Source of the DNA: Microcoleus sp. LEGE 07076
Lineage (GTDB): Bacteria > Cyanobacteriota > Cyanobacteriia > Cyanobacteriales > Microcoleaceae
Assembly: GCF_015207455.1 (NCBI RefSeq)
Contig: NZ_JADEWV010000011.1
Location: forward strand, 1 to 57,046
Direction of reading: 5' to 3'
DNA length: 57,046 bases
Of the stretch, positions 3,252 through 44,355 are shown piece by piece. The notes below the pieces were generated by a model, which was not told where the DNA came from, did not search any database, and saw nothing but the letters and a program-made list of their open reading frames with translations. The position numbers were made by a program, and so were the translations under genes. The first letter of the stretch is position 1. The number at the start of each line of letters is the position of its first letter.

Positions 3252-4832
3252 TTAATGAGCTCCCCCACCACCAGCACCCGCTTTCACCTTTTTAAAACCC
3301 AAAATAGCAATCCCGCTTAACAACAAAGCAATTCCCACAAAGTAAAAACAATCATTAAAAGCCATCACATAAGCTTCGCGGCGGACAATATTATCAATTA
3401 CCTTAATTGCCTGTTCTTTCGCCACACTCAAATCAGCACCGCGACTCACAAAATACTGAGTCATTTGATTGAGTCTTTCCTGCGTTGCCGGATTGTACAA
3501 AGAAACAGATTCCCCCAAGCGATTCGAGTGAAATTGCTCGCGCTGCGTCACCAAAGTTGCTAGCGCCGCAATCCCCATCGAACCTCCCATATTTCGCATC
3601 ATATTAAACAAGCCGGAAGCAGAACCAGCCTCGTGTTTTTCCATGCCAGCAGTGGCAATAGTTGACAGCGGCACCATAATTAATGGCTGTCCCAATGCTC
3701 GCACTAATTGCGACCAACGCAACTGATCGATACCCGTATCGTGAGTCATGCTGGCATTCATAAAACAACTCACCGCAAACAAACTCACACCTATGCCAAT
3801 TAGCAACCGCAAATCCATTCGCTGCATCAATTTCGGCACCATCGGTACGATGAATAACTGCGGTACGCCAGCCCACATAATTACCTCGCCAATTTGCATG
3901 GCATTGTACTGCTGGATCTGACCTAAATACAGGGGTAGAATGAACACCGAACCGTACAATCCTACACCTAACGAAACATTGACAATAGTTGCTAAGCCGA
4001 AATTGCGGCGAGTTAGCAGTCGTAGATTAATAAACGGGTTTTTTCGAGTTAGTTCAATCCAGAAAAAAGCGCCGAGAAATATAGCAGCAACTATGCTTAA
4101 ACGCACAATAAAATCAGAACTAAACCAGTCTTTGCGGCTGCCTTCTTCTAACACAACTTGCAGGGAACCTAAGCCGATCGCCATTGAGATAATTCCCCAC
4201 CAGTCGCCGCCTTTTAGCAGTTCTAGCTGCATCGGCTTAGGATCAACTGCGTACCACACAGCAGCTAGCAGCAGCATCCCTGGAACCAAATTGAGATAAA
4301 ACACATATTGCCACCCATAATTCTCAGTTAGCCATCCTCCCAATGTTGGTCCGATCGAGGGTGCAAAAGTAGCTGTCAGGGCAAACATCGCCATGCCAAT
4401 TGGCTGTTTTTTGGGTGGCAAATTGGTTAGCAAAAATCCAAAAGCCATTGGAATTAAAATACCGCCTGTCAACCCCTGCAAAGCTCGAAATACAATCATT
4501 GAACTCAAGTTCCATGCCTGAGCGCAGCACATGGAAAAAAACGTGAAAAAGGCAGCATTTACCAATATGTATCGGCGCACTGAAAACACTTGCGACAGCC
4601 AACCAGTCATCGGAATTACGACTATTTCTGCGACTAGATAAGCGGTGGAAATCCAAGAACCTTCTTCTAAAGTTGCGCCTAATGCTGCTTGAATATCTCT
4701 GAGAGATGCGTTGGTGATTTGGATGTCCAAAACTGCCATGAAAGCGCCGAGAATTGTTCCCATGACGCCGATCCAGGTTTTTAAGGGAACGCGATCGCTC
4801 TGCTGCTGGGGAATTGCACTGGTATTTGCCAT
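3252..4832 (-). CDS. MFS exporter, DHA2 (EmrB/QacA) family
   Basis: The 526-residue integral membrane protein is of the length and pattern expected for 14-helix DHA2 drug:proton antiporters. The family signature LDIQITNASLRDIQAALG follows the first helix, and the antiporter motif C region reads APSIGPTLGGWL in helix 5. The C-terminus ends in a Gly-rich tail. EmrB proteins usually pair with a periplasmic HlyD/EmrA adaptor, but none is encoded here; the neighbour on the same strand is another MFS protein. The substrate is unknown. A GCAGAGGGC minisatellite lies just upstream of the start (4870-4895). Confidence 0.9.
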   Translation of the reverse strand: MANTSAIPQQQSDRVPLKTWIGVMGTILGAFMAVLDIQITNASLRDIQAALGATLEEGSWISTAYLVAEIVVIPMTGWLSQVFSVRRYILVNAAFFTFFSMCCAQAWNLSSMIVFRALQGLTGGILIPMAFGFLLTNLPPKKQPIGMAMFALTATFAPSIGPTLGGWLTENYGWQYVFYLNLVPGMLLLAAVWYAVDPKPMQLELLKGGDWWGIISMAIGLGSLQVVLEEGSRKDWFSSDFIVRLSIVAAIFLGAFFWIELTRKNPFINLRLLTRRNFGLATIVNVSLGVGLYGSVFILPLYLGQIQQYNAMQIGEVIMWAGVPQLFIVPMVPKLMQRMDLRLLIGIGVSLFAVSCFMNASMTHDTGIDQLRWSQLVRALGQPLIMVPLSTIATAGMEKHEAGSASGLFNMMRNMGGSMGIAALATLVTQREQFHSNRLGESVSLYNPATQERLNQMTQYFVSRGADLSVAKEQAIKVIDNIVRREAYVMAFNDCFYFVGIALLLSGIAILGFKKVKAGAGGGGAH

Positions 4833-41263: not shown

Positions 41264-41641
41264 TTAGAGACTACTTAGGTTAGAAATTATTTCTTGAGAA
41301 CGCTTAATCGCAATACTAGCAATCGCAGATAATAAGGGAAAATTATCGTCATAGTCTGCTTGATTTCGATATCGGCGCAGCACTGCTAAATTATCGGCGA
41401 TTAATTGATATTTTGAGTCAGGATTAATATCAAATTCTTGCCAAACATAGCGGTGAATATCGCTAGTTTTGGGCAGGGAATGGCCTTGTTTATCTCGCAA
41501 ATAGTTCCGCGATAAGATAAAAGCAGCATAATAGGAACGACTGATAGCATCCCTCAATCGCGCCTCCTGTTCAGCAGGAATAGTTGCTTGACTAGCAAGT
41601 TCTTTTGCTAAATTTAGGTATTGCGACCAATCAAAACTCAT
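41264..41641 (-). CDS. HEPN-like domain protein
   Basis: This is a 125-residue helical protein from MSFDWSQYLNLAKELASQA. It has the HEPN layout: an early SRSYYAAFILSRNYL helix and a C-terminal LRRYRNQADYDD, the position of the Rx4-6H RNase motif in nuclease-active HEPN toxins. Here the motif reads RNQADYD, as in a large subgroup without the His, so RNase activity is uncertain. The start at 41641 overlaps the end of the upstream gene by 11 bases, which argues for a coupled two-gene module of toxin-antitoxin layout. A longer N-terminus that lies in the upstream gene is rejected. Confidence 0.8.
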   Translation of the reverse strand: MSFDWSQYLNLAKELASQATIPAEQEARLRDAISRSYYAAFILSRNYLRDKQGHSLPKTSDIHRYVWQEFDINPDSKYQLIADNLAVLRRYRNQADYDDNFPLLSAIASIAIKRSQEIISNLSSL

Positions 41642-42095
41642 CAGTATATTCCAAAATCGTATAAAAATGCTCCCGAATTTCATGGGATAATCCCCTAGAC
41701 CAATTTTTACGCAATTCATCTTCTCTATCCATTGCTTCATCGGGAGCGAGGTCTGTTAAGATGATTGATAGAACCAGATGAACATAGTTAGGAATTTCCG
41801 GGTCATTGATGACTTGAAGTAATAGTTTTTGTTCGGAAAAATAATTGCTAATTTGAACGGGTGCTTCTAGCACAACGGGAAGTAAAAACGGATATTTGTT
41901 AATAAAGTCAATAACTTCTGTCTTGTCTCGGAAAATGTATGATTTTTCTAGGGTTTCGATGTCTGATTGGGAAATGAGGAAAGGCGCGACTCTTGGTGCT
42001 GATATCTTGTCTAAAATTAAGGATGCTATGGCATTTTGTTCTGCTTCGGGTAGTTGAGAGACGGTGGCAAAAGTTTCTTCTAATAGGTTATTCAT
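41631..42095 (-). CDS. Hypothetical partner of the HEPN-like protein
   Basis: This is a 154-residue soluble acidic protein. The first ~30 residues (MNNLLEETFATVSQLPEAEQ, NAIASLILDKI) resemble the N-terminal helix seen in cyanobacterial antitoxin-like proteins. The rest (YPFLLPVVLEAPVQISNYFS, LVLSIILTDLAPDEAMDRED, HEIREHFYTILEY) resembles uncharacterised cyanobacterial proteins usually found alone. The stop overlaps the HEPN gene start by 11 bases, so the two are cotranscribed. A role as antitoxin or regulator of the HEPN protein is inferred from layout only. Confidence 0.7.
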   Translation of the reverse strand: MNNLLEETFATVSQLPEAEQNAIASLILDKISAPRVAPFLISQSDIETLEKSYIFRDKTEVIDFINKYPFLLPVVLEAPVQISNYFSEQKLLLQVINDPEIPNYVHLVLSIILTDLAPDEAMDREDELRKNWSRGLSHEIREHFYTILEYTDEF

Positions 42096-42304: not shown

Positions 42305-42320
42305 TACGCACAGGTGGCCA

Positions 42321-42384
42321 GAAACCGGGTTTTTTGCGATATCCTTCGCTGTACTCCACAGATTAAGTAAAAAACCCGGTTTCT
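42321..42384. repeat. GAAACCGGGTTTTTT inverted repeat element
   Basis: GAAACCGGGTTTTTT at 42321 and AAAAAACCCGGTTTC ending at 42384 are inverses around a central GCGATATCCTTCGC-bearing segment. It belongs to the same family as 18149-18214 and 44747-44812. Confidence 0.78.
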
Positions 42385-42510
42385 TTGTCGGGAGTGCATC
42401 CACGAGTGCAAAAAAAAATCGAGTCGCCAGAGACGACGAAAAAAGTGAAAAAGAAAAAAGAGTAAAGAGTAAAAGGGCAAAAGAGCAAAAAAGAGTCCTC
42501 GCGGGGAAAA

Positions 42511-44355
42511 CTAGGACGACGAAGAAACCGAAGCAACCGCTACACGAAAACCCCCGCACCAGCCCAAGAGGCCCGCAGAGACGTAGTAGCGGAAGGCAGC
42601 ACGGCAATAGACCGCATCGTCGTACCACGAACACCCACGCATCACTCGGCTTTTACTATTTCCACCAGTTTCCCAAGCACTACCATCAGTAGGCGCACCA
42701 TTATAATTATCGTGCGAAACATCTTGACACCATTCCCAAACATTCCCGTGCATATCGTAAAGTCCAAAGCTATTAGGCGGAAAACTACCCACAACAGTTG
42801 TTTTTTCACGATAGATTCCCTTCGGTGCAGAACCGTAGGGAAAATTGCCACGATAATTGGCTAAATCCGGGGTAACTGTGTCCCCAAAATGAAATGGAGT
42901 AGTTGTCCCAGCCCGACAAGCATATTCCCATTCCGCCTCGCTAGGAAGGCGATAGCTTCTACCCGTCTTCCGAGACAATCTGGCACAAAATTCAACAGCA
43001 TGATACCAAGAAACCTTTTCTACAGGAAGGTTTTTACCCTTGAAGCTAGAAGGGTCAGGATTAAGGTCATACTGAATTTTAGGCAGATTAGCTACTACTT
43101 CCCACTGTGCTTGAGTAATCGGGTATTTCCCCAGCAGAAACGGTTTGATTGTCACCTGATGTTGAGGTCTTTCCTCGTCATCGGTTCCTCGTTGCGTTGC
43201 AGGTGCACCCATTTTGAAGCTGCCTTTGGGGATAGAAACCATTTCTAAAGTAACGCCATTGGCGATAGTTTCTGTAAAAACCTGTGCTTGACTTTGGCTG
43301 CGCTTGGTGATTTGCCCCTTTGAATTCACTGTCACCGTTTCAAATTGAACTGTTTTTAGGGAATTTGACAATACTTTTACAGGTTGAGGCGATTTGTTCC
43401 CCAAACTTTGATACACAGTTGGTGTTGGTGGCGGTGGCGGTGTTGGTGGCCGTGTTGGTGGCGGTGTTGGTGGCGGTGGTGTTGGCGGTGGTGTTGGTGT
43501 TGGTGTCGGTGGTGTTGGTGTCGGTGTCGGAGGCGGCGACAAAGATAAAATTGCTGGCAATGCTTGCTCTGCATTTTGATAGCGCTGACTGAAATGGTCG
43601 CGCACCATTTTATCTAACACATTTGCTAAATTATTGCTAACTTGCGCTTGATTTCGCCAAATAACTTCTCCTGTCTGCGGATCTTCTGGTAAGGTATGAG
43701 GAGGTTGACCAGTCAATGCTTGAATCCCAATCATCCCCACTGCATAAATATCGCTACACAGTTTAGGTTTGCCCTTCGCTTGTTCGCTGGGCATATAACC
43801 CGAAGTACCAATACCAACGGTGAAGCTAGTTTGTCCTTGAGCATTAACAACCATTGTGCTAATTTCCTTGACCGCCCCGAAATCAATTAAGATAATTTTA
43901 CCATCTTGGCGGCGCATTAAATTAGCAGGTTTCAAGTCGCGATGAATCACATTTTGCTGATGAACAATGGCTAAAACTTCTAAGATATCGTGCAATAATT
44001 TAATAGTATGGGATTCGCTTGATTTTTTACCTGGAATCAGTTCTTTGGTAAGGTCATGTCCTTCGATAAAATCTTGCACCAAATAAAATTCGCCATTTTC
44101 CTCAAAGTGGGCGGAAAGGCTGGGGATTTGGTCGTGTAGCTTACCCAATTTATACAGCGTTTGGGCTTCTTTGTCGAATAAGCCTTTGGCAATTAGTAAA
44201 ATGGCGGGATTGGGGTCTTTCGGTTTAAAATGTTTGACAACGCAGTGGGGATGTCCGGGTAAGTCTAAATCTTTGGCGAGGTATGTGTCGCCAAAACCGC
44301 CTTCTCCCAAGTCTTTGATAATTTGATAGCGATTGCGGAGGGTACGACCCAGCAT
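42511..44355 (-). CDS. Ser/Thr protein kinase fused to FGE/C-type-lectin-fold domain; candidate DGR variable protein
   Basis: The protein has 614 residues. A Hanks-type kinase spans 1-270: P-loop GEGGFGDTY, Lys41, HRDLKPAN (138-145) and DFG (158-160). A Thr/Pro linker (273-312) follows, then a formylglycine-generating-enzyme-like (SUMF1) domain from about 365 (MVSIPKGSFKMGAP, LPSEAEWEYACRAGT, YDMHGNVWEWCQD). The FGE active-site Cys pair is incomplete: only Cys584 of the usual CxxxxC remains. The end, RVMRGCSW then CRAAFR then GGFRVA, has the framework of DGR variable regions, with the positions in between filled by Tyr, Asp, Phe, Val, Leu, Gly, Trp and Cys. See findings. Kinase output and ligand are unknown. 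Confidence 0.9.
   Translation of the reverse strand: MLGRTLRNRYQIIKDLGEGGFGDTYLAKDLDLPGHPHCVVKHFKPKDPNPAILLIAKGLFDKEAQTLYKLGKLHDQIPSLSAHFEENGEFYLVQDFIEGHDLTKELIPGKKSSESHTIKLLHDILEVLAIVHQQNVIHRDLKPANLMRRQDGKIILIDFGAVKEISTMVVNAQGQTSFTVGIGTSGYMPSEQAKGKPKLCSDIYAVGMIGIQALTGQPPHTLPEDPQTGEVIWRNQAQVSNNLANVLDKMVRDHFSQRYQNAEQALPAILSLSPPPTPTPTPPTPTPTPPPTPPPPTPPPTRPPTPPPPPTPTVYQSLGNKSPQPVKVLSNSLKTVQFETVTVNSKGQITKRSQSQAQVFTETIANGVTLEMVSIPKGSFKMGAPATQRGTDDEERPQHQVTIKPFLLGKYPITQAQWEVVANLPKIQYDLNPDPSSFKGKNLPVEKVSWYHAVEFCARLSRKTGRSYRLPSEAEWEYACRAGTTTPFHFGDTVTPDLANYRGNFPYGSAPKGIYREKTTVVGSFPPNSFGLYDMHGNVWEWCQDVSHDNYNGAPTDGSAWETGGNSKSRVMRGCSWYDDAVYCRAAFRYYVSAGLLGWCGGFRVAVASVSSSS
42556..42624 (-). other. Candidate DGR variable region (VR) core
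   Basis: Codons 578-600 of the kinase-FGE gene span the segment between GCSW and GGFRV. The conserved frame residues Cys584, Arg585, Ala587 and Arg589 keep non-A codons. The other positions are TAC, GAC, GAT, TAT, TTC, TAC, TAC, GTC, TCT, GGC, CTC, TTG, GGC, TGG and TGC, most of which could come from AAC, AAT or GAC by changes at A only. The absence of Asn codons where relatives have Asn runs is the signature of adenine-directed mutagenesis. The template repeat is not in this window. Confidence 0.6.

Follow-up and report, generated by a model that had tools for sequence, protein, structure and literature searches.

The kinase-lectin fusion gene at 42511-44355 (minus strand) of Microcoleus sp. 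LEGE 07076 carries near its 3' end the variable region (VR) of a diversity-generating retroelement (DGR), at 42538-42648, an observation that is confirmed. All positions refer to the window, the whole stretch of 57,046 nucleotides that was analyzed. We believe that the gene is a past DGR target, written by a lineage of DGRs that can no longer be found in this genome, and is now probably orphaned or frozen, and we put the probability of this reading at roughly 70%. Kinase-lectin remote targets are already published for cyanobacteria; this case shows clear signs of lost machinery.

The variable region and its homing site

Based on translation and Pfam searches, the gene encodes 614 residues, with a protein kinase domain at residues 10-264 (43564-44328, minus strand; PF00069, 6.6e-32) and a formylglycine-generating enzyme (FGE)-type C-type-lectin domain at residues 371-606 (42538-43245, minus strand; PF03781, FGE-sulfatase, 2.7e-55). 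In the kinase domain we spotted by eye VIHRDLKPAN and LIDFGAVKE, which we take to be the HRD and DFG motifs. The reading frame, its strand, and the motifs RVMRGCSW, CRAAFR, and GGFRVA near the C-terminus are as an earlier preliminary description of this DNA had them. By phmmer, the C-terminal part matched 5hha (PvdO) at 3.5e-40 and 2y3c, the Treponema denticola variable protein 1 (TvpA) of a DGR, at 9.2e-26, and a Foldseek search with a predicted model of the lectin domain (mean pLDDT 74.4, below 50 at residues 124-160 and 216-228) returned 5hha, 2y3c, and formylglycine-generating enzymes (6xtq, 1z70, and others) from the PDB. The scaffold is an FGE-type C-type lectin, and the VR sits on a fold that matches 2y3c by both sequence and structure (TMq 0.71). 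TvpA differs in that the matched chain has no kinase domain and the fold match is only 27% identical, while the formylglycine-generating enzymes share the PF03781 family and the fold but not the hypervariable C-terminal tip. Downstream of the kinase gene, at 41264-42095 (minus strand), an open reading frame with a HEPN domain (PF05168, 3.3e-08) overlaps an unassigned one of 154 residues.

The VR core covers residues 570-606 (42538-42648, minus strand) and is recognized by its differences from the template repeat (TR) of a relative, G001, and by its hypervariability in syntenic orthologs. The templates compared were the TRs of three congeners, G001, G015, and G041. Over the first 111 nt (42648 down to 42538), the window VR differs from the G001 TR at 19/27 adenines and at 3/84 other positions (C 2/28, G 1/35, T 0/21), and the changed adenines fall 12 times at codon position 1, six times at position 2, and once at position 3. 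The corresponding values are 20/27 and 7/84 against the G015 TR and 20/27 and 19/84 against the G041 TR. The adenine excess is strongest with the G001 TR, the best of the three (p = 2.3e-12, one-sided Fisher test), with p values of 8.5e-11 and 2.3e-6 for the other two, meaning that the VR departs from a TR almost solely at TR adenines, albeit a TR of another species. The preliminary description had proposed A-to-N changes in AAC, AAT, and GAC codons of a kinase-FGE fusion whose lectin-like domain is a DGR target. Relative to the G001 TR, AAC or AAT codons have become TAC, GAC, GAT, TAT, TTC, GTC, CTC, GGC, and TGC, and these adenine-specific differences, together with the homing site described below, bear the proposal out.

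The fit to the G001 TR is confined to the first ~111-119 nt of the window VR. When the comparison is extended to 160 nt, 20/30 adenines and 19/130 other positions are changed, and therefore the 3' part of the VR does not come from a G001-like TR and the real donor TR is either unsampled or gone. The VR 3' end (42489-42537, minus strand) is identical at 49/49 positions to that of the ortholog in G002 and unlike the three known congener TRs. It contains GCGAGGACTCTT at 42491-42502 (minus strand), which by comparison with TR/VR pairs of relatives is a homing site of the VR type, known in the literature as IMH. Where this homing site has AGG, the TRs of relatives carry AGC or AGT, so that the VR ends in a form distinct from that of a TR. 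A pyrimidine-rich tract follows 3' of the homing site (42441-42490, minus strand) and resembles the tract behind the VRs of relatives. By DNA search, the 3' segment of the window has some match in 16/29 genomes of the genus, and among the loci compared we saw no TR of this 3' type. When the surroundings of the homing site were searched for inverted repeats, no strong hairpin turned up immediately 3' of it; the strongest inverted repeat nearby, a perfect repeat of 16 nt (AGAAACCGGGTTTTTT) at 42320-42384 downstream of the VR, is probably a small repeat element.

As controls we used the two other FGE genes of the same genome, on contigs C324 and C32, that lie away from VR matches. The C324 gene shows no adenine pattern (19/27 A vs 46/84 non-A, p = 0.11). 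The C32 gene (L029, minus strand, reverse-complement position 2730; frame RLLRGGSW...CRSA...GFRVV) gave 18/27 A vs 37/84 non-A (p = 0.03), and a weak adenine excess appears against the six TRs of more distant relatives that were compared, of eight given (p = 0.0005 to 0.057), so this gene is no clean negative control. It has between 24 and 36 non-A mismatches to each of these TRs and the homing-site string was not found in it; we do not count C32 as a clear further target; it may be a very old one.

The resident cassette and the search for a template

The draft genome has 6.79 Mb in 495 contigs (completeness 99.61), and the window is contig C172. Searching its DNA with the end of the kinase gene gave 16 places at E<=10, among which, besides the gene itself, one on contig C93 is clearly related; a match on C121 belongs to an unrelated gene. 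C93 carries, in this order, a TPR-FGE gene, Avd (DivGenRetAVD NF033474, 3.3e-40), and a reverse transcriptase (RT; phrog_1423, 7.6e-112), the last two identified by profile search. Repeat-element DNA lies between Avd and RT (L026:4339-4567), and short tandem CCCAATT repeats lie 3' of the RT (L026:5776-5877). Other RT matches, on C17 (twice), C9, and C337, were rejected as DGR RTs; judged by eye from their open reading frames and motifs, they look like group II intron RTs.

There is no RT match on C172 and no TR in the window, as the preliminary description had stated. It had suggested a remote target and proposed looking elsewhere in the genome for an RT and avd, which are indeed present on C93, and for an A-rich near-copy of the VR, which was not found in the draft assembly. 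The part of that suggestion that calls for a resident template acting in trans is not supported, no TR having been found; a DGR RT and Avd elsewhere in the genome are. The same description had named the absence of both a template copy and an RT as evidence against a DGR; here the copy is missing, but the RT is present and the adenine-specific signature is seen against the TRs of relatives. The DNA queries that found no TR in the assembly were the window VR, the C93 VR, the G015 TR, the G041 TR region, and the window 3' segment; the 5' flank of the G041 TR matched this genome solely in its repeat-element part. A scan for same-strand copies that differ at the adenines of one copy recovered TR/VR pairs in 11/15 DGR loci given to it and none at C93, G041, G042, or G009.

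C93 can be compared with G041, where the RT shares 90% identity with the resident one and a TR does exist, on a contig end that holds no target gene. In C93, the VR joins directly onto DNA that in G041 comes after the TR, and therefore we conclude that VR and TR have fused and that the TR is gone; the cassette has no TR beside its VR, Avd, and RT. The C93 VR fits the G041 TR (13/27 A and 6/84 non-A changed), which the window VR does not, so the resident RT family is not likely to have written the window VR. The C93 VR itself was also rejected as a template for the window VR, with 30/95 non-A mismatches. The genome contains a DGR RT and Avd, though of a different template family from the window VR, and a matching TR was not found in the draft assembly. 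For the C93 RT, dN/dS is 0.14 against G041 and 0.21 against G042, and for Avd it is 0.11 against G041 (a fourth value, 0.06 against G015, comes with saturated dS). This purifying selection indicates that the C93 machinery worked until recently or still does.

A stretch of ~80 nt directly after the TR gave us an independent way of searching. It is recognizable in 14/16 loci, at L026:3754-3832(+), L087:5004-5082(-), L088:3757-3835(+), L142:4314-4392(-), and ten further loci; L093 and L099 have no match to the search string, and L214 and L251, in Nostoc, were counted as TR-like places without a VR check. The element folds into a conserved, covarying RNA in which 99.6% of cells are paired and 8/17 pairs are changed on both sides, the structure having been derived from the same alignment. 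A sliding control reached at most 52.5% of cells paired and at most three two-sided pairs, and shuffles never attained the values for pairing and two-sided change, but further pair types were no more numerous than in shuffles (370 of 500). In the outer stem, the end of the TR homing site pairs with a downstream GAGTCCAGAC stretch. Rfam at the gathering threshold gave no match in L026, L087, or L088, and we did not find this fold in the open PMC literature. We built a covariance model of the element and scored 150 first-look candidates in each genome, which gave a single match in each of 5/29 genomes of the genus, namely C93 (the fused copy), G001, G015, G041, and, in part, G009. In the genome of the window, where 150 of 2207 such candidates were scored, the fused copy was the one TR 3' element found.

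The kinase gene in relatives and variable regions across the genus

In the window the kinase gene and aroC are ~3 kb apart, and the distance is similar in nine relatives (G001, G002, G004, G008, G010, G014, G017, G020, and G043), while in G018 both are on one contig, about 12.6 kb apart. Our ortholog comparison covers 11 species; G006, where synteny was not shown, was left out, and the orthologs of G001, G010, and G020 are not full-length, the open frames found beginning inside the gene. In these species the kinase has a mean pairwise identity of 84.2% (from the 36 pairs that overlap sufficiently) and the FGE part preceding the VR one of 76.5%. Within the VR, mean identity falls to 12.7% at the 12 codons for which the G001 TR has Asn or AGG, as against 68.7% at the other 25, which include CAG (codon 3) and TAC (codon 22).

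The window and G002 are close in the kinase (3.0% difference), in the VR 3' segment (0/49), and downstream (2-4%), but they differ by 23.7% in the FGE part preceding the VR and by 38.7% in the VR core; the high value ahead of the VR suggests that exchange between paralogs also acts here, and such exchange may have brought the VR in. From G010, the window differs by 5.6% in the kinase, by 9.9% in the FGE part preceding the VR, and by 30.6% in the VR core itself, with 23.9% in the VR 3' segment and 6.8% downstream. The G010 VR fits the G041 TR (14/31 A and 6/139 non-A changed over 170 nt) all the way to the homing site, and beyond the homing site the DNA is window-like again. Given that the G010 VR fits the G041 TR and the window VR fits that of G001, we infer that at least two template families have acted on this kinase gene.

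An RT was found in 5/29 genomes of the genus and in 12/59 in all (C93 RT query, E<=1e-40), and Avd scored over the cut-off in 4/29, the G042 contig starting just before its RT. The genomes include drafts, whose assemblies may hide DGR components. The G015 TR has some match in 23/29 genomes, and 39 gapless cores in 21 genomes passed a motif filter among the loci compared. Three of these are TRs, leaving at least 36 VR cores in at least 20/29 genomes, and in 18 of the 20 no RT was found, so that the genus, like the genome of the window, shows written targets where the machinery is not detected. In the cores, the 23 columns with A in each of the three TRs have an entropy of 1.62 bits vs 0.47 for the 81 columns that are never A, the latter value being lowered somewhat by the motif filter, which fixes four residues; all four bases are present at 19/23 of the all-A columns vs 14/81 of the never-A columns.

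Several cassettes show damage. G001 has kept TR and VR on its contig C155 (L142, about 3514-4540, minus strand), with DUF4160/DUF2442 genes occupying the place of Avd and RT. In G015, TR, Avd, and RT are all present, but the cis target has an in-frame stop in the VR. In G009 (contig C142, L098:4097-4669), the RT frame is broken after about 156 residues, near the contig end, and the partial TR 3' element lies at that very point.

Origin of the variable region and its significance

By analogy with known DGRs, the RT would have copied a template RNA, placing random bases opposite adenines, and the cDNA would have replaced the VR as far as the homing site at 42491-42502 by mutagenic retrohoming. 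The writer would be a DGR of the G001/G015 template family, no longer detected in this genome, and the surviving C93 cassette belongs to the other, G041-type family, with Avd and RT open and its TR lost through the VR-TR fusion. With only a cassette of the other family remaining, and that one without its TR, the window VR is probably frozen and its specificity under ordinary selection. The gene encodes a Ser/Thr kinase whose C-terminus bears a C-type-lectin module for binding, and ligand binding by the lectin presumably gates or aims the kinase.

A live remote target would need an intact TR of the window type hidden in a gap of the draft assembly, from which a DGR goes on diversifying the kinase in trans. 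With 495 contigs, a TR may indeed lie in a gap, and C93 may be misassembled; moreover, the C93 RT and Avd have intact open frames and evolve under purifying selection, the non-A mismatch of the window VR to the G001 TR is low (3/84), and trans action on distant genomic targets is reported (PMC10907252, PMC7517822). We nevertheless consider this unlikely, since neither the DNA searches of the draft assembly nor the RNA covariance model, among the candidates scored, found a TR and the template family of the resident RT does not fit the window VR. Taken with the signature against the TRs of relatives, these results fit an orphaned past target better than an active remote one.

About as improbable is an origin in which a paralog received the VR first and recombination between FGE genes, rather than retrohoming in place, brought it here. 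FGE paralogs are numerous in the genus, and the contrast between 23.7% difference from G002 in the FGE part before the VR and 3.0% in the kinase indicates that segments have been exchanged. The comparison with G010 argues the other way, because there the differences before and after the VR (9.9% and 6.8%) are much smaller than in the VR core and because its VR is G041-like up to the homing site and then window-like, as retrohoming predicts; writing at the kinase gene is thereby shown in G010, and less directly in the window. Finally, an ordinary FGE domain whose likeness to DGR targets is just the conserved family frame is scarcely credible. The RGGSW...CR...GFR frame is kept in 31/31 aligned FGE proteins, most of them VR carriers themselves, but such a frame accounts for neither the adenine-specific differences and the homing site nor the lack of the pattern in the C324 control.

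Cyanobacterial kinase-lectin remote targets, remnants, and degraded cassettes are published (Vallota-Eastman et al. 2020, PMC7517822), as is the hypothesis that ligand sensing by the lectin tip gates or aims the kinase in such proteins. Like the targets in the parts of that paper considered here, the window gene joins a serine kinase to a C-terminal lectin domain and has its VR at the 3' end, distant from the RT; the remote targets described there have a TR in the same genome, in contrast to the window gene, for which none was found and the best template is in another species. The DGRs of Thiohalocapsa PB-PSB1 (Dore et al. 2024, PMC10907252) likewise act on targets whose loci lack a complete cassette and which were recognized by TR match at non-adenine sites, and differ in that, in the portion of the article consulted, some targets have a matching TR in the same genome and variation is seen in metagenomes. 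Remote DGR targets are also mentioned in passages of PMC8867640 and PMC8144416, and high TR-RNA expression with adenine-site diversity is described for Nostoc in part of PMC12691664. In the open PMC literature we found no genus-wide account of VRs that outlast their machinery.

It is possible, though we would not yet favor it, that the DGR of this genus is a hit-and-run mutator that arrives, rewrites lectin receptors on kinases, TPR proteins, and other parts, and is lost, so that the receptors are inherited while relic cassettes remain with complementary lesions. Such lesions are seen in the genome of the window, which has RT and Avd without a TR, and in G001, which has a TR without Avd and RT. 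If written targets outlive their writer across the genus, DGRs need no permanent residence to shape receptor repertoires, and surveys that start at RTs or at TR-VR pairs miss many DGR products. The finding makes testable how cells switch off targeted hypermutation, and the orthologs of this one kinase gene, with their differing lectin tips, are natural sets for asking which ligands such receptors bind.
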